This document shows, one piece after another, positions 49,098-60,849 of a stretch of 64,000 nt of DNA (position 1 is the first letter of the stretch; each line of letters opens with the position of its first letter). The stretch comes from Bacteroidales bacterium Bact_19 (GTDB taxonomy: Bacteria > Bacteroidota > Bacteroidia > Bacteroidales > ML635J-15). The position numbers and the translations under genes were made by a program. The notes below the pieces were generated by a model that made no database searches, was not told the DNA's origin, and saw only the letters and a program-made list of their open reading frames with translations. The stretch lies in contig LUZK01000069.1 in NCBI GenBank assembly GCA_001603595.1, forward strand, positions 1 through 64,000, given 5' to 3'.

Positions 49098-52000
49098 CTA
49101 ATTTTTGACAATTTTAAAAAACATAGAAATTTTTTCACCTCTTAATTCAAGTAGGTATAATCCCTCCTTGAAAGTTGACATTTCTTTCACAACAAAATTA
49201 TTTCCTGAATTTAGAGTTTCGATATCTTCGATTTTGAATAAAGTTTTACCAGTGATATCATAAACAAATAGAGAGTATTTATCAGTAATATTTTCGGTAA
49301 AATAGATTGTAAAAACATCCGTAAAAGGATTTGGATAAATTTGAGAATTTGTAAAGAAATTAGTATTTGTTGAAATGTTTTGATCCACGATTAATTCTAT
49401 AGGAATAATTAAAGTTGTTGATGCGTCACTTATTTTTAAATCAGCATAATATATTCCAGGTTCGAGTCCTTGAGTGTCATAAATTAAATCAATGCTATGT
49501 GAACTTAGGTAAGGTATTGTTCCTGAAGATGGAACTGCTCTAACCCAAAAAGACGATGGATTGGGCAGAATTATGTTAGAGCTTACGATGTGCGGTTCAG
49601 AACCATAAATGTCTCCATAAATGGTATAATTGATAATCGATAAATCCTCTGTGTAATCTGGATCGAAACTTACATTTACTGTTGCAACACCTGTCTCGTT
49701 TTCACGTATTTCTCCCCATTGTCCGAGTGCATTCCATTCAAGAGTTGTTCCGCAACCGGTTGCATTATTGGTTACAAGAGTACCTGATGGACCAACCATA
49801 TTTGTGGATGAATTTACGCAAATTTCTCCGGGAAAATTAATAACAACTCTTTTAATCCATTCTAAATCAGGAGAGACACAATTTGCAAAAAACTGAATAT
49901 CAAGAGTTTGTCCGGGTAAAAATGATTCAATATTTGTAGTCAAAGTAGAACCTGCAATATTCTTTTTTCCGCCTTGTTGAGGAATAACTTCTATTATGAA
50001 GTTAACTTCACCTCCACCAATGTTTTGTATAATAAGCTCATCGGTATCAGTATCATCAGGGGGCATAGTTTTTGAAATATTTTGTGTTTCGCACCATAAT
50101 AAAGGCGGTAAATTGTTATAAGCAGGGAAAACAATTTTATCAATCCATGCTGCGTCTGCTCCGGAACTTATGGAGCCATCTTTTCTGTACCGCCATGTGA
50201 AAGTATGGTTGCCAGCCGTAACCGGTACCGAATGAATAGTCCAGTTTAAATTTCCTGACCAGTTGGCGACAACAACTCCATCAATCAAAAATTCAAGAAA
50301 ATCATAATAAGCCTCAGAATCTACTTTTCTTGCAAAAGATATTTCGCCGTCCGCAACTACATTTAATTCGATTTGCAAAACACTCATTTGGTTATGTGAG
50401 ATTGCTCCAGATTTTAAACAGTAAGCCCCTTCGTAAGGGTTCTGAGAAGAAATTACCCATGGAAGATCACCTCCGTTTATCCATTGGAATGAAGATAAGT
50501 CCCCTGTTTCAAAATTTTCTTCAAGAATTCCAATTATTAAGATAACCGGTATATCTTGTGTATAACCATGATCTGCATTTACATGTAAAATCAGATTAAA
50601 GACATCATTCAAATTACAACTTGAACTTGCTGTTATGTTAAAAGTTAACATAGTATTTACCCCAGCATTTAAAACGGAAATGCTTTGAGGTGCAGTGTTT
50701 ACAGTAATTTTTGGATCATTTGAAACTAATGCTGCAGTAATGTTTGTTGCAGAAATTAAACCTTGATTTTTTATGTTAAAAATTATATCAGCTGTTTCAT
50801 TTGGAAATAAACAATTGTCGTTACCATCATTAATAAACATGCTGATAATCTGCAATTCAGGCATATTGATAGTTAAAGAATTGTTTAATTGAGTTTGAAA
50901 ATCATTATCGGCATTAATATTGAAGCTAATTGTTTCAACAGTAGTATTTGGAACGTTATTCGAAATTGAAATATTAAAAGTTGCATTTTCAGAAGAGTTT
51001 TGGGAAATAGATGTTATGTTAAAGTTGTTTGAAGTAAGACTCAAATATGGGCTATTAGAAGATGCAGTAATTAAAACATTATTAACCGGACAACTTCCTG
51101 AGTTTAGAATTGGAAATGTAATTTGAATGTTTTCTCCCGCAGTTGCAATATTATCATTCCCATCATTAATAGATACCTGTCCTAAAAATAAGTTTGGAGC
51201 ATAAGCTGTAAATGTAAATATATAGTTCCAGCTGCCCAGAGTTGAAGTTACATTAAAATTTAATTGAAAACTATAGTTATTAGGAATATTTGGATCAACA
51301 TGAAGTGAGAAGGCATTATTTAAATTAACATTTCCTCCGGGAGGAATATTTGGAGCAGTATTTGATCCGTCAATGATGTTAATAAAAGGATCACTACAGG
51401 TCATCGTGATATTAATATCGCTACAGGTACTAGACATTGGATTAGTAATACTCATATTAACATAAACGGTTTCGTTGTATTCAATAATAGAATTATTAGA
51501 TGTAGTAATGGTAGGGGATAATATTAAGCCATCAGTAATAAAATAAAAAGTCCTTTTATTATGTAATCCATTATTATCAGTAACTTTTAATGGAATAGGC
51601 AAATTTGTGTATTGAGTTGTTGGTGTCCCGAAAAGAAGACCTGATGTTGTAATGTTAAATTCTTCAGGAAGTGTTTTGGGTGTAAGTGTATATGTAAATC
51701 CATCAGGGATATTAGATATATCATTAAAATGAAAATATTGAAATGTTTTTTCGTCTCCGGCAGAAACTCCGCAAACATAACGGTCTTGAGGAGTGAGGTT
51801 AGCATTTTTATACTGGAATTTAATTCTTCCGTCGTTGTATAAAGTCATTGCAAAATATAACTTATTATTTTCCCAAATTATTGTTTTATAATTTGAGCCT
51901 GATAAAGTTTTAACATTTGAAGATTGTGAATAAATATAGAAAGGGGCAATACAAATATTATGAATAAAAATTATTGGTTCGTTATAATTATTATAAGGTA

Positions 52001-53720
52001 ATGTTTCACTAAAATTAGATTGAAAAGCCACTAGTCCATTATTCTTAACATAAATAGTATTATAGGATTTTCCATAATAATTAAAATCAAAACCCAATGG
52101 TACCGCAGTAAATCCCGCAGCAGAAATTATTGTTCCTCCAGATGGGAAGTTTTCAATACTTTCATTTACCTCAAAATCATGATTAAAACTCCATTCATAT
52201 GGAGGATTTCCTCCACTAGCATTTAGTTGAGTGGAAAAATAACTGTTGATAGGAGACATTAAATAATCGTCTCCATTTATCTGAGGTTTAGAGTGTGATG
52301 GTGTTAAAATTACACTCATCATTGCTATACCGTTATTTGGAATATTTTGTACAGGATCAGTAGAATAAGTTTCAACCGGAGTTCCTGAACTATAGTTTAT
52401 TATGGAAAAATTATTTAAAGTTCCGCTTCCCCATTGTTCGTCATCTTTTTCAGAAACAATTATGAAAAATTTGGCTTGTTGATTTTCCCCAATGAAATTA
52501 AGTAAAGAAGTTAAATCAAGTCCAATTTCAATAGTTTTGTCGGATTCATTAGTTCCACCTGTCATATATCTATCTCCTCCCTGATAATCAAATATTGGAA
52601 AATCTAAAATATATTCAGGAAATGTAGAGGAAGTATTTAATGAAATTCCGGCAACAACTTTTATTCTTTTGCGATTAGTATAGGTTAAAGATGCTTTTGC
52701 AGTTAGCTGAGGTTCGTAATTGGGGATTACTTCCATAACATTCACTAAATAGTTCCAAAATGCACCAACGGAACCATTTCCTGCAATAGCTTTATACATA
52801 ATGTAGCAGTATCCATTATTTGCCCATGAAGGTCCACCACTATATGTATTACACATTTTAATGGCCCCGATTTCCCAATCTCTCATATCAACAATTCCGT
52901 CCCCAGTAATGTCAATATTGTTTGTGTACTGACTATCACCATTATAGTCAAATCTAATTGAATCATTATATCCCATAATTGTCATAGCATGAGAAGTACT
53001 TGCAGTTAGCTCTGTGATAACTAACTTTCCACCTTCTTCAGTTCCTGCAGGAAGGGTAGCATTAGGGTAGGGGACTGTTGAATAAAATACTGCGGCACCA
53101 CCTTTTTCATCACCTCTAGCATGGTCATATAACCATTGTTTTAGTAATTGTAAACCTTCTGGAGTCGATACATTAATTTTATATGCATTTTTAATACGAT
53201 TATGCATTGATGAATAATAAAGATCGTATCCTGTCATCCATCTAAGGTTTCCTCCGTAGTCAATAGTTCCGCCATATTCAGCCTGGTTTGGGGTACCAAC
53301 AGTTCTTAAAACTTCGAAAGTATGGTAATAACTCACTCCATTACTTCCCCAGTCACCCGCAGCCCAGTTGTACACAAAACCTGTAGGATATAAATTGTTA
53401 TTATTGTTTGCCGGTAAATTTCTTGCGACATTAATTTCGTATGTAAAACACATACCGGTGCTGCTTGCTTGTCCGCAACTCATTCCTGATTGTTCAAAAA
53501 CAGGACGCCAGTGAGGCGAAGTAGAATTATCAACCTTGTATGGTAACGGACTTTTATAACCGGATTTTAATTCTAAATCCGGCAAACTCATTAACAATTG
53601 CTGGTCTTTAATTGACAGCTCTTCAGGAGAAGAAAATTTTTTTGTGTTTTGTGAAAAAATTGAAAAACAGTTAAACACTAAAAAAGATGCAAAGACTAAA
53701 AATTTTGCTGAGAGTTTCAT
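49098..53720 (-). CDS. Large T9SS-secreted protein with N-terminal papain-like (C1-type) cysteine peptidase domain
   Basis: Signal peptide; 'HWRPVFEQSGMSCGQASSTGMCFTYEIN', 'STSHAMTIMGYNDSIRFDYNGDS' and a downstream Asn/Trp region; repeated Ig-like segments; C-terminal 'SQIYPNPFTDVFTIYFTENITDKYSLFVYDITGKTLFKI...GLYLLELRGEKISMFFKIVKN'. Confidence 0.83.
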   Translation of the reverse strand: MKLSAKFLVFASFLVFNCFSIFSQNTKKFSSPEELSIKDQQLLMSLPDLELKSGYKSPLPYKVDNSTSPHWRPVFEQSGMSCGQASSTGMCFTYEINVARNLPANNNNNLYPTGFVYNWAAGDWGSNGVSYYHTFEVLRTVGTPNQAEYGGTIDYGGNLRWMTGYDLYYSSMHNRIKNAYKINVSTPEGLQLLKQWLYDHARGDEKGGAAVFYSTVPYPNATLPAGTEEGGKLVITELTASTSHAMTIMGYNDSIRFDYNGDSQYTNNIDITGDGIVDMRDWEIGAIKMCNTYSGGPSWANNGYCYIMYKAIAGNGSVGAFWNYLVNVMEVIPNYEPQLTAKASLTYTNRKRIKVVAGISLNTSSTFPEYILDFPIFDYQGGDRYMTGGTNESDKTIEIGLDLTSLLNFIGENQQAKFFIIVSEKDDEQWGSGTLNNFSIINYSSGTPVETYSTDPVQNIPNNGIAMMSVILTPSHSKPQINGDDYLMSPINSYFSTQLNASGGNPPYEWSFNHDFEVNESIENFPSGGTIISAAGFTAVPLGFDFNYYGKSYNTIYVKNNGLVAFQSNFSETLPYNNYNEPIIFIHNICIAPFYIYSQSSNVKTLSGSNYKTIIWENNKLYFAMTLYNDGRIKFQYKNANLTPQDRYVCGVSAGDEKTFQYFHFNDISNIPDGFTYTLTPKTLPEEFNITTSGLLFGTPTTQYTNLPIPLKVTDNNGLHNKRTFYFITDGLILSPTITTSNNSIIEYNETVYVNMSITNPMSSTCSDINITMTCSDPFINIIDGSNTAPNIPPGGNVNLNNAFSLHVDPNIPNNYSFQLNFNVTSTLGSWNYIFTFTAYAPNLFLGQVSINDGNDNIATAGENIQITFPILNSGSCPVNNVLITASSNSPYLSLTSNNFNITSISQNSSENATFNISISNNVPNTTVETISFNINADNDFQTQLNNSLTINMPELQIISMFINDGNDNCLFPNETADIIFNIKNQGLISATNITAALVSNDPKITVNTAPQSISVLNAGVNTMLTFNITASSSCNLNDVFNLILHVNADHGYTQDIPVILIIGILEENFETGDLSSFQWINGGDLPWVISSQNPYEGAYCLKSGAISHNQMSVLQIELNVVADGEISFARKVDSEAYYDFLEFLIDGVVVANWSGNLNWTIHSVPVTAGNHTFTWRYRKDGSISSGADAAWIDKIVFPAYNNLPPLLWCETQNISKTMPPDDTDTDELIIQNIGGGEVNFIIEVIPQQGGKKNIAGSTLTTNIESFLPGQTLDIQFFANCVSPDLEWIKRVVINFPGEICVNSSTNMVGPSGTLVTNNATGCGTTLEWNALGQWGEIRENETGVATVNVSFDPDYTEDLSIINYTIYGDIYGSEPHIVSSNIILPNPSSFWVRAVPSSGTIPYLSSHSIDLIYDTQGLEPGIYYADLKISDASTTLIIPIELIVDQNISTNTNFFTNSQIYPNPFTDVFTIYFTENITDKYSLFVYDITGKTLFKIEDIETLNSGNNFVVKEMSTFKEGLYLLELRGEKISMFFKIVKN

Positions 53721-53832
53721 ATAAAAGGAATTTTTTGTAAATTTAACTAAAAAATATTTTAAATTTACAAAAAATTTAATTATACAAAATTTTGTGGTTA
53801 TTTTTATTACAAATTTTATTTAATTGCTAGAA

Positions 53833-54828
53833 ATGAAACACTTCAGCAAATCAATTATCGATTTATATCAAAAGGTTTTTCAAGTTAAGAATTGTCCCTG
53901 GTGTGGAAGTGAGCAATTTATTAAACATGCAAAGTATCATTATACTTACCGGTATAAATGTAAAAAATGCAAAAGAACTTTTTTGCCCAGCACAGGAACT
54001 AGTATTCATTACATTCATAAAAAAGATCAGTTTTATGATTATGCAAATGTATTGAAAAATGAGGGATTATTATCTTTATCTACAATGTGTAAAAAATTTA
54101 ATATTGCTCCATTGACTTCATTTGACTGGCGTCATAAAATTTTAATGTCAATTCCGAGAAATGATAAAGTTTTTAGAAATGAAACTTTTTGTTACAATTT
54201 ACAATTTAACTATAGCAGGAAGGGACGGAAGGGAATCCCAAATCCATTGTCGAATATTAAAGCCAAAGGATTACTTAAAGATAATAAATACAAAAGTCAA
54301 GTAATTTCTTTACGTAACACAAAGGTATTAGCATCTAAATTAGTTACAGTTGGGTCAGTGAAACTAAAAGATATTAAAAGGTCTATCGGTAAAAATCTTT
54401 GTCGAACAAAAAGTTTGGTGATTAATCATGAAATTCAAGGACTAGCAGAATTTGCAAAACTAAAAATATTAAATTTAATTGCCATATATAAAAAATCTTC
54501 AGAAGTTCAAAAAAGAATTTTCATGGAGAACTTCAATAGTTTGAATTTAGATTTTAAAGGATGGATAAATAATATTAAGAAAGGTGTTGCTACAAAGTAT
54601 TTGGCGTTGTATTGCAATTATTTCATGGCATTCTATTCAAAGAAATTCTCACCTTTTGCAAAAAACATAATAAATCAAAAATTTGTTTGGCCTTTTTACA
54701 CTTTAACAGAACATTTTTACAAAGAATTCATTCTTAACCACACAGAAATGAATTATCCAAAACCAACAAAACGAAAGTGGAAAACTTCAATCAAATATTC
54801 TTTCAAAAAAGAATTATTCCCTTATTAA
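53833..54828 (+). CDS. IS1595-type transposase homologue, probably catalytically inactive
   Basis: Zinc ribbon 'CPWCGSEQFIKHAKYHYTYRYKCKKCKRTFLPSTGTSIHYIHKK', 'LTSFDWRHKIL', 'QFNYSRKGRKG' and 'GVATKYLALYCNYFMAFY' are IS1595-like; expected catalytic Asp positions appear as Asn. ORF-track start 53824 is TTG; ATG at 53833 preferred. Confidence 0.72.
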   Translation: MKHFSKSIIDLYQKVFQVKNCPWCGSEQFIKHAKYHYTYRYKCKKCKRTFLPSTGTSIHYIHKKDQFYDYANVLKNEGLLSLSTMCKKFNIAPLTSFDWRHKILMSIPRNDKVFRNETFCYNLQFNYSRKGRKGIPNPLSNIKAKGLLKDNKYKSQVISLRNTKVLASKLVTVGSVKLKDIKRSIGKNLCRTKSLVINHEIQGLAEFAKLKILNLIAIYKKSSEVQKRIFMENFNSLNLDFKGWINNIKKGVATKYLALYCNYFMAFYSKKFSPFAKNIINQKFVWPFYTLTEHFYKEFILNHTEMNYPKPTKRKWKTSIKYSFKKELFPY

Positions 54829-57242: not shown

Positions 57243-57315
57243 GTATTTTTTTGACAATTTTAATAATTTTCTGCGATAAAAACTATTTTTGTTAAAAATT
57301 TGCAAGAAGTTAAAG

Positions 57316-58278
57316 ATGAGAAAAATTTATTGTGTCGGCGAAACAGTTTACGATATTATTTTTAAAGATGGAAAACCTGTTGAGGCCAGACCTGGAGGCC
57401 CTGTCCTTAATACGGCCGTCTCGCTTGGAAGGTTGGGAGAAAAAGTTTATGTAGTTGGTGACCAGGCTGATGATGTTATAGGAAATTTAATAGCAGATTT
57501 TTTAGTGGAAAACAATGTTTCTACTAAATATTTAACTTTATATAACGGTGCAAAATCAAGACTGTTATTGGCATTTCTCAATGATTTGAGCGAACCGGAT
57601 TATAGTTTTTATAAAATTAGAGTTAACGGCGAAATTAAAATTATTTTTCCCGAACCTAAAAAAGAAGATATTATAATTTTCGGGGCCTTTACTTCAATAA
57701 AAAAGGAGGTTAGAGATGATTTAGTGAAATTTCTAAAAACAGCTAAAGAAAATAATGCACTTATGATCTATGATCCTAATTTCAGACCTGTCCATAAAAA
57801 AGTTTTGAACGAGGTAAAAGATTACATCGTCGAAAATATTGCTTTTGCTAATATCGTAAAAGGTTCTAATGAGGATTTTAATAATATTTTCGAATCAAAC
57901 TCAGCATTGTCAACATGGAAGTTGCTAAAGGAATTTGATTGTAAAAACTTGATTTATACAGCAAATAAATATGGAGTAAATCTTTTTACAGATTATTTTC
58001 ATAAGGTTTTCGATGTTCCTCGGATTGAACCGGTTTCAACAGTGGGTGCAGGAGATAATTTTACTGCAGGTTTAGTGTATGCATTAATCAGGGAAAATAT
58101 TTTTGCCGAAGATTTAGTTCACCTCGACGCAGATATCTGGAGACGAATAATCCGAGTTGCAATAGATTTTGCCATCAGCGTTTGTCTAAGTTATGATAAT
58201 TATATCGACCAGAATTTTGTTATTGATTATCTTAGAAATAACAGATATAAAGGATGTCAGTGCCGGTGTTATAAATAG
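57316..58278 (+). CDS. PfkB family carbohydrate kinase
   Basis: 'YCVGETVYDIIFKDGKPVEARPGGPVLNTAVSLGRLGEKVYVVGDQADDVIG' and 'EPVSTVGAGDNFTAGLVYAL' PfkB signatures. ATG at 57316 preferred. Confidence 0.95.
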   Translation: MRKIYCVGETVYDIIFKDGKPVEARPGGPVLNTAVSLGRLGEKVYVVGDQADDVIGNLIADFLVENNVSTKYLTLYNGAKSRLLLAFLNDLSEPDYSFYKIRVNGEIKIIFPEPKKEDIIIFGAFTSIKKEVRDDLVKFLKTAKENNALMIYDPNFRPVHKKVLNEVKDYIVENIAFANIVKGSNEDFNNIFESNSALSTWKLLKEFDCKNLIYTANKYGVNLFTDYFHKVFDVPRIEPVSTVGAGDNFTAGLVYALIRENIFAEDLVHLDADIWRRIIRVAIDFAISVCLSYDNYIDQNFVIDYLRNNRYKGCQCRCYK

Positions 58279-58290
58279 AATTTAAAAAGC

Positions 58291-60786
58291 CTACCAGACT
58301 CCGGGAATTTCCTCTCCACATTTCGGACATTTTCCTTTAAAATCCTTCCTGCTTATAGTATTATATCCAATCCTACGAATTATATTCTCTCCACAATTTG
58401 GACAATAAGTATTTATTTCCGAATTCCTAACATTACCAAAGTAAACATATTTAATTCCTTTTGATTTTGCGATTTCAGCAGCTTTTTCAACAGTTTCAAC
58501 CGGAGTTGGAGGAACATCCGACATTTTGTATGCCGGGAAAAAACGGCTGAAATGTAATGGCACATCCTGCAAATTGTTTTCTACCATCCAATCACACATT
58601 TTGGAAATCATTCCCATATCATCTGTGTATCCCGGGATAATAAGATTGGTAATTTCAACCCAAACGTTGTAATTTTTTAACAGTAATATTGTTTCTAAAA
58701 CCGGTTGAAGACTTCCTCCCGTTATTTGACGGTATAATCTATTGTCAAAACATTTTAAATCTATATTTGCTGCATCCAAGTAGGGAATGAGTTCAATTAA
58801 TGGTTCTTTATTTATGTATCCGTTAGAGACCATGATATTTTTTAATCCTGCTGCGTGGGCAAGTTTTGCCGTTTCAAGCATAAATTCATAAAAAATCGTT
58901 GGCTCGGTATAGGTGTAAGATATTGATTTACTATTGTATTTTAAGGCTAATTCAACAATTTTTTGAGGAGTTGCTGAGGTATATTCAATTTCTATCGGAG
59001 AAACTTGTGATATTTGATAGTTCTGACAGTTTTTGCAACTAAAATTACACCCTGCAGTACCTAATGACATAGTGCTGGTGCCCGGCATAAAATGATACAA
59101 AGGCTTTTTTTCTACTGGGTCGTTGTGAAGAGCTACAATTTTACCGTAACTTAAAGATTCAAGTTCTCCATTTATATTTTTTCGTGCATTGCAAATCCCA
59201 ACTTCATCTATCTCTAGTGTACATTTGTGCGGACATAATTCGCACCTTACCTTATTGTCTTCTAATTTTGTGTAGAATTTAGTTTTTTTTTTCGGAAACA
59301 AACCAAAGTCTTTTTCGGAAAAAACTATGGCTTCGTAGATGTAAATATCAGCATCTTTCCAACCATTCCAGCCTAAACCTGCTTTATCACGAGCACAATG
59401 TCCCAGAAATTCTTCGAGTGACCAGCCGGTTTCAGTTGCTACTTGAGGCAAAAATGTTCCTCCTCTGCCGTTTTTCATAATGTAAATACCGTGTTTCCCC
59501 AATTCAATTTCGTCTATTGAACTGATTTTTTTCATTGGCGTGAGAACAGAAATCTCAATATCAATTTCATCTAATTCCTTTTTAGTAACTGAACTAAAAC
59601 GCGGGTCGCGAGTGGCTGCAGAAATGGCCATATCTATAACTACTTCATAAAGAGGAACTTTAGGTTCAAATTGACCTATACATCCTCTTAGAGCTCCATC
59701 CTTGTGAAGTGTAACAAAGGCTCCGCAATGATTTTTTAAATTTTCTGAAATCTTTATCGAGCTTATTTCCGGCCTTTTGTTATTGGTAATTTTTTCTTCA
59801 ACAGTTAGTCGAGCTAGTTTTAATAATTCTATTTTTTCTTCATCAGATAAACTGAAATCGTTATTTTGTTTTTTGATGAGAGATATAGCCCAGTAACCAA
59901 CAACTTTATCTTTGCTACCATAAGGAGAGTCTCCGGAATTTTTGTAGTCAATAGGGAGATATTTATAATTATGGTCGGTTAAATACATTAAAGTCAAAAC
60001 AGCTGACCATCCGCAACAAATAGTAGCTAAATTATTTATCTTACTTTTTTCGTATTTTGTAATCAAATTAACTAAGCTGTCCGGTTTTCCGGTTAGTATT
60101 GCTTCTGCAGTCTCGTTGTCAATCCTTAAAGCCTCTTCATACGACGGATAATGAGAAAAATCGCTGGAGATAACAAAAATGTTGTTTTCATTGAAATAAG
60201 GTTTTAAGGCTTTAGCAATTTTTTTAGCAGTATTTATGGCATCCTGTCCGATGACTATTGGAATTATTTGAAAATCATTTTTTAAATGCACTTGTAAAAA
60301 TGGCAGTTGAACTTCGATACTATGTTCTGTTTTATGTGCTTCCGGCAAAAATTTGAAAAAGTCATTTTCGTTTATCAATTTATTTGCTAAATCTATATTT
60401 ACTTTCACTTCTCCTAAGGGAGTTATATAATTTCCTGCACTGTATATTGAAGCTCCGTCAAAATAAGTAGTATGGCTTGCAGCTATTATGAAAACATTTT
60501 CATATTTTTTATCCGGATTTATCTGATTAATTGCAGAAGCAGCAATTTGTCCACTGAAAACATAGCCTGCATGAGGAGAAATTACGGCAACGGCATCAGA
60601 CTTTCGACTTTTAGCAGTAGAAAAATAATATTTTACATCATTTAATAAATCATTTTTATTGGCAGGGTAAAATCTGCCGGCAACAGCAGCATTGCGATTC
60701 ATAAGCTCTTGTTTTTTAGATTGTTGTGCACATCCGTTAAAAAATAAAAATATAAATATTGAAATAAGGACCATCCTCATAATCAA
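58291..60786 (-). CDS. AmmeMemoRadiSam triple-fusion protein: MEMO1-like (protein B) + AMMECR1 (protein A) + radical SAM enzyme
   Basis: MEMO: 'VISPHAGYVFSGQIAASAI', 'TEHSIEVQLPFLQ', 'VISSDFSHYPSYEEA', 'CCGWSAV'. AMMECR1: 'FVTLHKDGALRGCIGQFEPKVPLYEVVIDMAISAATRDPRFSSVTKKEL'. rSAM: 'CELCPHKCTLEIDEVGICNARKNINGEL', 'GTAGCNFSCKNCQNYQIS', C-terminal zinc ribbon 'CPNCGENIIRRIGYN...CPKCGEEIPGVW'. Confidence 0.95.
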   Translation of the reverse strand: MIMRMVLISIFIFLFFNGCAQQSKKQELMNRNAAVAGRFYPANKNDLLNDVKYYFSTAKSRKSDAVAVISPHAGYVFSGQIAASAINQINPDKKYENVFIIAASHTTYFDGASIYSAGNYITPLGEVKVNIDLANKLINENDFFKFLPEAHKTEHSIEVQLPFLQVHLKNDFQIIPIVIGQDAINTAKKIAKALKPYFNENNIFVISSDFSHYPSYEEALRIDNETAEAILTGKPDSLVNLITKYEKSKINNLATICCGWSAVLTLMYLTDHNYKYLPIDYKNSGDSPYGSKDKVVGYWAISLIKKQNNDFSLSDEEKIELLKLARLTVEEKITNNKRPEISSIKISENLKNHCGAFVTLHKDGALRGCIGQFEPKVPLYEVVIDMAISAATRDPRFSSVTKKELDEIDIEISVLTPMKKISSIDEIELGKHGIYIMKNGRGGTFLPQVATETGWSLEEFLGHCARDKAGLGWNGWKDADIYIYEAIVFSEKDFGLFPKKKTKFYTKLEDNKVRCELCPHKCTLEIDEVGICNARKNINGELESLSYGKIVALHNDPVEKKPLYHFMPGTSTMSLGTAGCNFSCKNCQNYQISQVSPIEIEYTSATPQKIVELALKYNSKSISYTYTEPTIFYEFMLETAKLAHAAGLKNIMVSNGYINKEPLIELIPYLDAANIDLKCFDNRLYRQITGGSLQPVLETILLLKNYNVWVEITNLIIPGYTDDMGMISKMCDWMVENNLQDVPLHFSRFFPAYKMSDVPPTPVETVEKAAEIAKSKGIKYVYFGNVRNSEINTYCPNCGENIIRRIGYNTISRKDFKGKCPKCGEEIPGVW

Positions 60787-60849
60787 CCAAAATGTAGATT
60801 ATCTTTACAAATATAACAAAATTTTTCGAGAAATCAAATTAACATTTAG

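Follow-up and report, generated by a model that had tools for sequence, protein, structure and literature searches.

A single gene of the window (the whole stretch of 64,000 nucleotides analysed here, from contig LUZK01000069.1 of Bacteroidales bacterium Bact_19) joins the three components of AmmeMemoRadiSam, namely MEMO, AMMECR1 and a radical SAM protein (rSAM), in one chain. We consider it somewhat probable that this fusion is a complete exported AmmeMemoRadiSam set, re-targeted to the Sec pathway by the fusion in a lineage devoid of Tat. We are evenly divided on a wider reading, in which a widespread branch of AmmeMemoRadiSam rSAM proteins of bacteria and archaea would work outside the cytoplasm, with Tat as the normal export route and in many cases a dedicated membrane protein as companion; the fusion of the window would be its Tat-independent version with a single Sec signal. 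MEMO1 and AMMECR1 are also human proteins, and to our knowledge the function of AmmeMemoRadiSam is unsolved.

The triple-fusion protein and its distribution

The fusion is encoded by an unbroken ORF on the minus strand, which yields 831 aa from a TTG at 60786, as the initial annotation had read it, and 829 aa from an ATG at 60780, the likelier of the two starts. The order of MEMO, AMMECR1 and radical SAM domains in the chain, also proposed there, is borne out by Pfam (Memo, residues 33-300, E 2.9e-57; AMMECR1, 322-489, 8.3e-54; Radical_SAM, 577-724, 1.5e-19) and by the NCBIfam models AmmeMemoSam_B (TIGR04336), AmmeMemoSam_A (TIGR04335) and AmmeMemoSam_rS (TIGR04337), for which the protein scores 238, 172 and 378 bits against curated cut-offs of 26, 99 and 220, respectively. 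The CxxxCxxC motif that had been placed at about 59026-59049 lies exactly there, and the announced C-terminal zinc ribbon is present as CxxC...CxxC. The features of the gene and its upstream region are the following:

58291..60780, minus strand: triple-fusion CDS, MEMO-AMMECR1-radical SAM, 829 aa plus stop
59881..60696, minus strand: MEMO domain (AmmeMemoSam_B), by Pfam and NCBIfam; closest solved structure human MEMO1, 7kq8
59320..59823, minus strand: AMMECR1 domain (AmmeMemoSam_A), by Pfam and NCBIfam; structure matches 1zq7 and 1vaj
58294..59283, minus strand: radical SAM domain (AmmeMemoSam_rS), by NCBIfam (378 bits); model pLDDT 94.9
60571..60573, minus strand: His70, counterpart of human MEMO1 metal ligand H49 (PMC11081632), invariant in the alignment
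60472..60474, minus strand: His103, counterpart of MEMO1 H81 (PMC11081632), invariant in the alignment
60013..60015, minus strand: Cys256, counterpart of MEMO1 C244 (PMC11081632), invariant in the alignment
59674..59691, minus strand: LRGCIG motif, residues 364-369; L364, R365, C367 and G369 invariant
59191..59244, minus strand: N-terminal Cys cluster CxLCPxxC...C, residues 513-530, in 13/13 fusions and all relatives
59026..59049, minus strand: radical SAM CxxxCxxC, Cys578/582/585, intact in all classes and in 13/13 fusions
58318..58404, minus strand: C-terminal zinc ribbon CxxC...CxxC, Cys793/796/818/821, in 13/13 fusions
60733..60780, minus strand: signal-peptide-like segment MRMVLISIFIFLFFNG, residues 1-16 before Cys17, with lipobox-like FFNGC, read from the sequence; same character in 13/13 fusions
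60700..60702, minus strand: internal Met (MNRN...), the start position of split signal-less relatives by comparison of N-termini; possible alternative start
60808..60815, minus strand: Bacteroidota-type -7 box TATATTTG (TAnnTTTG motif), 27 nt before the ATG
60835-60837, minus strand: TTG of a -33-like element, upstream of the -7 box

With all three components above cut-off and their motifs intact, the protein matches AmmeMemoRadiSam (amrA/amrB/amrS), which is usually found as separate genes or as a MEMO-AMMECR1 fusion plus an rSAM, whereas the window holds one chain with a predicted export signal. Its MEMO domain has the fold of human MEMO1 (Foldseek E 2e-25) and the same His/His/Cys set as the metal ligands H49, H81 and C244 of that protein (PMC11081632), although human MEMO1 is stand-alone and cytosolic, with neither AMMECR1 nor rSAM in its chain. 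The fold is also shared with LigB-type extradiol dioxygenases (2pw6, 8in2, 7txy), in which, however, the third metal ligand is a Glu in place of Cys256 (PMC11081632).

The structure was predicted as two halves, MEMO-AMMECR1 and rSAM. The model of the former has high local confidence and a pTM of 0.65, and does not fix the arrangement of the domains, so that the shared substrate path proposed in the initial annotation stays a conjecture. The closest solved fold to the latter is that of the pyruvate formate-lyase activating enzyme (3cb8, TM-score 0.82 by target), a structure with a bound peptide. Nevertheless, all curated models of glycyl-radical activases stay far below their cut-offs for the fusion (TIGR02493, 54.6 versus 231.75 bits), whose rSAM part, unlike these enzymes, also carries a Cys cluster towards its N-terminus and a zinc ribbon.

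The same fusion, 829-843 aa long, is encoded in 13 genomes from three genera of one Bacteroidales-type family. Since the 12 other proteins (56-93% identical to that of the window) have the same length and intact motifs, an assembly artefact, a chimera or chance can be ruled out. Outside this family, the usual layout is a MEMO-AMMECR1 fusion beside a separate radical SAM gene. No other triple fusion was found in a sample of the phylum (396 genomes, 87 with rSAM), among the matches listed for a sample of the order (393 genomes, at least 185 with rSAM), or in the best 80 named loci (genome_contigs). The family search suggested in the initial annotation thus answers how widespread such fusions are: in some 790 genomes of the broader samples, among the matches listed, and in the 80 loci, a widespread triple fusion is discarded, and within the samples examined the arrangement is rare and confined to one family.

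In the window's family, a further three genomes encode MEMO-AMMECR1 and rSAM as two separate genes. Because one split gene (L047) is placed among the fusions in the tree, a secondary split of the fusion is possible in this case. The linker between the AMMECR1 and rSAM parts has only about 7-10 residues and falls near the position of the first gene's stop codon in split relatives, which makes a close coupling of both parts plausible. A readthrough fusion in Prevotellaceae was also considered and set aside, as the two frames are in phase in L054 and L053 and out of phase in other loci. Two further arrangements were observed. In G030, a family member whose genes are split, a second rSAM copy, membrane-anchored, lies beside a fragment of AMMECR1 (L051:1498-2727, minus strand), and in a KSB1 genome a MEMO-AMMECR1 fusion is immediately followed by an additional AMMECR1 gene that stands alone (L109:8518-9084, plus strand).

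Predicted export and the presence of TatC

Residues 1-26 of the fusion resemble a signal peptide, a feature that the initial annotation had missed. According to rule-based assignments read from the N-termini, all 13 fusions show a basic n-region followed by a hydrophobic core of Sec type or lipoprotein-like, after which come Bacteroidota-type SQ/AQ sites in most of them, and NGC in the window protein and in L034; the fusion may be lipid-anchored in the window genome and its nearest relative. A twin-arginine-like motif is absent from all fusions, and no N-terminal signal is seen in the three relatives of the family whose genes are split. When nucleotides of the same composition were shuffled, an open frame with an equally hydrophobic core appeared in at most 0.8% of the cases for each fusion, and the predicted model presents a helix at residues 2-16, then a stretch of low confidence, and then the folded MEMO domain. 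Moreover, the motif TAnnTTTG, which we take to be the Bacteroidota -7 element, is located 17-28 nt upstream of the long ATG in 11 of the 13 fusions, and none of them has it within the initial 130 nt of the ORF. The signal-like N-termini, the shuffles, the model helix and the upstream box support the long start, export itself being predicted.

The rSAM N-termini of relatives are of two kinds, one short and cytosolic, and another with either a twin-arginine-like motif plus a hydrophobic stretch or a membrane anchor. Predicted exported forms, with a Tat signal on the rSAM and a Sec signal on MEMO-AMMECR1, occur across bacteria and archaea, where cytosolic forms also exist. Tat-type rSAM proteins are mostly paired with a signal-bearing MEMO-AMMECR1, and cytosolic ones with a signal-less partner, according to automatic labels of which a few are misread when inspected by eye (L002, L065, L082, L096). 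Both copies were read in 20 two-copy Bacteroidales genomes, where one is short and cytosolic and the other is Tat-like, with a motif that in most cases reads KR rather than RR. In the tree, one clade gathers 17 of these 20 cytosolic paralogues, and the rSAM parts of the fusions are nested in the other, exported-rich clade, inside a group of 109 rows with 95% SH-aLRT (a quick tree, with no bootstrap). A different combination is found in Prevotellaceae-type loci (L053, L054, L065, L069, L002), in which MEMO-AMMECR1 is signal-bearing or lipoprotein-like and the rSAM has no signal. TatC is present in the four genomes of this type that were searched (those of L053, L054, L065 and L069), and therefore MEMO-AMMECR1 and rSAM need not share a compartment.

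TatC was found in none of the 13 fusion genomes. It is absent from 29 of the 31 genomes of the window's family and present in 28 of the 30 other sampled families of the order. Among genomes with a Tat-type rSAM, 46 of 48 have TatC, and the two without it are incomplete (78% and 89%); among fusion or anchored cases, it is present in 3 of 21. One genome of this survey, G011, has TatC, and of its rSAM only an end is seen, at the edge of a contig. As these genomes are related, the Fisher values for such comparisons overstate independence, and as TatC is missing in most of the family, with or without the fusion, the link is lineage-wide and does not constitute a test of cause.

Other explanations for the N-terminus have to be weighed against Sec export, starting with translation mainly from the internal Met (MNRN...), which would give an ordinary cytosolic triple fusion and leave the upstream stretch as a minor or regulatory start. 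Most fusions retain this Met, which immediately precedes the MEMO domain, so that a cytosolic form could be made; split relatives start there, and radical SAM chemistry known from elsewhere takes place in the cytosol. We nonetheless regard this explanation as unlikely in view of the 13 diverged yet open signal-like extensions with their basic n-regions, the promoter box that precedes the long start with none internal to the ORF, and the nesting of the fusions in the exported-rich clade.

Even if the chain is exported, its rSAM might act before export and modify MEMO-AMMECR1 while this part is still in the cytosol, much as exported sulfatases are modified by anaerobic sulfatase-maturing enzymes; the mature protein would then work outside. 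The Prevotellaceae-type loci, with their signal-bearing MEMO-AMMECR1 and signal-less rSAM, fit this scheme, as does the closest fold, that of the pyruvate formate-lyase activating enzyme, whose target is a loop of a protein. We judge it distinctly improbable, however, given that in many phyla the rSAM itself bears a Tat signal and is accompanied by TatC, and that in the fusion the rSAM is translated last, behind the export signal. The N-terminus could also stay uncleaved and tether the enzyme to the cytoplasmic side of the inner membrane, consistent with the hydrophobic helix predicted at 2-16 and with the advantage of solving the problem of SAM and Fe-S supply. This proposal appears very improbable to us, because the basic residues before the hydrophobic core predict, by the positive-inside rule, that the C-terminal part is outside, and because cleavage-like sites (SQ/AQ or NGC) come after that core. 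Export by Sec, the reading we prefer, has to face the fact that Sec normally exports unfolded proteins, and that periplasmic Fe-S proteins normally take Tat.

Neighbouring genes and candidate partners

A membrane protein with several TM segments (12-16 in most cases), which includes a spermidine-synthase-like domain, is encoded near the rSAM gene in 21 of 36 loci of the exported kind, versus 1 of 40 cytosolic ones (examples are L056, L057, L059, L060, L085, L091, L105, L107 and L120, among others). No homologue of this membrane partner was detected in the 31 genomes of the fusion family, which counts against the exported reading there, although 15 of the 36 exported loci lack it too. In a Lentisphaeria genome, the rSAM domain is preceded in the same chain by a DsbD_2 transmembrane domain (L097:5164-6987, plus strand); in L079 a protein with DsbD_2, FMN_bind and Fer4_5 adjoins the rSAM, and DsbD_2 is also found near it in L080. 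It is plausible that the DsbD_2 proteins of these three loci provide an electron route across the membrane.

Within the fusion family (G000-G030), a strong match to a small DsbD_2 gene occurs in 13 of 16 genomes with AmmeMemoRadiSam versus 1 of 15 without it. As an electron partner of the family it was set aside, because this gene clusters with thioredoxin-like proteins, together with an ArsR-type regulator in two of the three loci read, so that the association is probably ecological. FMN_bind is uninformative as a companion, being present in 31/31 genomes of the family.

No conserved operon partner of the fusion was found among 12 loci. A pfkB-family kinase (57289-58278, plus strand), convergent with the fusion gene, is kept beside it in 7 of the 12. 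The window also contains an ORF (53824-54828, plus strand) whose N-terminus resembles a zinc ribbon and which looks like a transposase by eye; it occupies the same place in the relative L141. A large secreted protein (49098-53720, minus strand) bears a sorting domain for type IX secretion at its C-terminus, which is ordinary for the phylum.

Proposed mechanism and its meaning

According to the model that we favour, the fusion would descend from the exported, Tat-dependent branch of AmmeMemoRadiSam, and in a family without Tat the rSAM would have been joined onto the C-terminus of a Sec-targeted MEMO-AMMECR1, so that the single-chain set would cross the inner membrane via the Sec pathway. There, MEMO may bind Fe or Cu as a redox metal through His70, His103 and Cys256, and the rSAM part may generate a 5'-deoxyadenosyl radical and attack a substrate, or a loop of a protein, that AMMECR1 would present at its LRGCIG, with MEMO performing a coupled redox step. 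A protein or peptide loop is favoured as substrate because the rSAM fold is closest to that of glycyl-radical activating enzymes, which act on peptide loops, and this loop may be the LRGCIG of AMMECR1. This chemistry as a whole, together with the redox step that the metal of MEMO would provide, is a rather improbable proposal.

In the portions of the literature consulted, AmmeMemoRadiSam was met merely as a table annotation, and one article mentions Memo-Ammecr1 systems as recently described (PMC7159879). The search found no article on an exported rSAM of AmmeMemoRadiSam; a survey of the PCAD-Memo superfamily (JBC 2019), outside that search, may describe such forms or triple fusions.

The single-chain version offers one gene to delete, tag or express, although cytosolic expression would require a construct without the signal. 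The larger interest of the fusion lies in its belonging to a predicted exported branch of AmmeMemoRadiSam. If part of this system works outside the cytoplasm, the supply of SAM, the [4Fe-4S] cluster and low-potential electrons in that location becomes a question, and its substrate would be there as well, among envelope proteins, peptidoglycan, lipids or metals.
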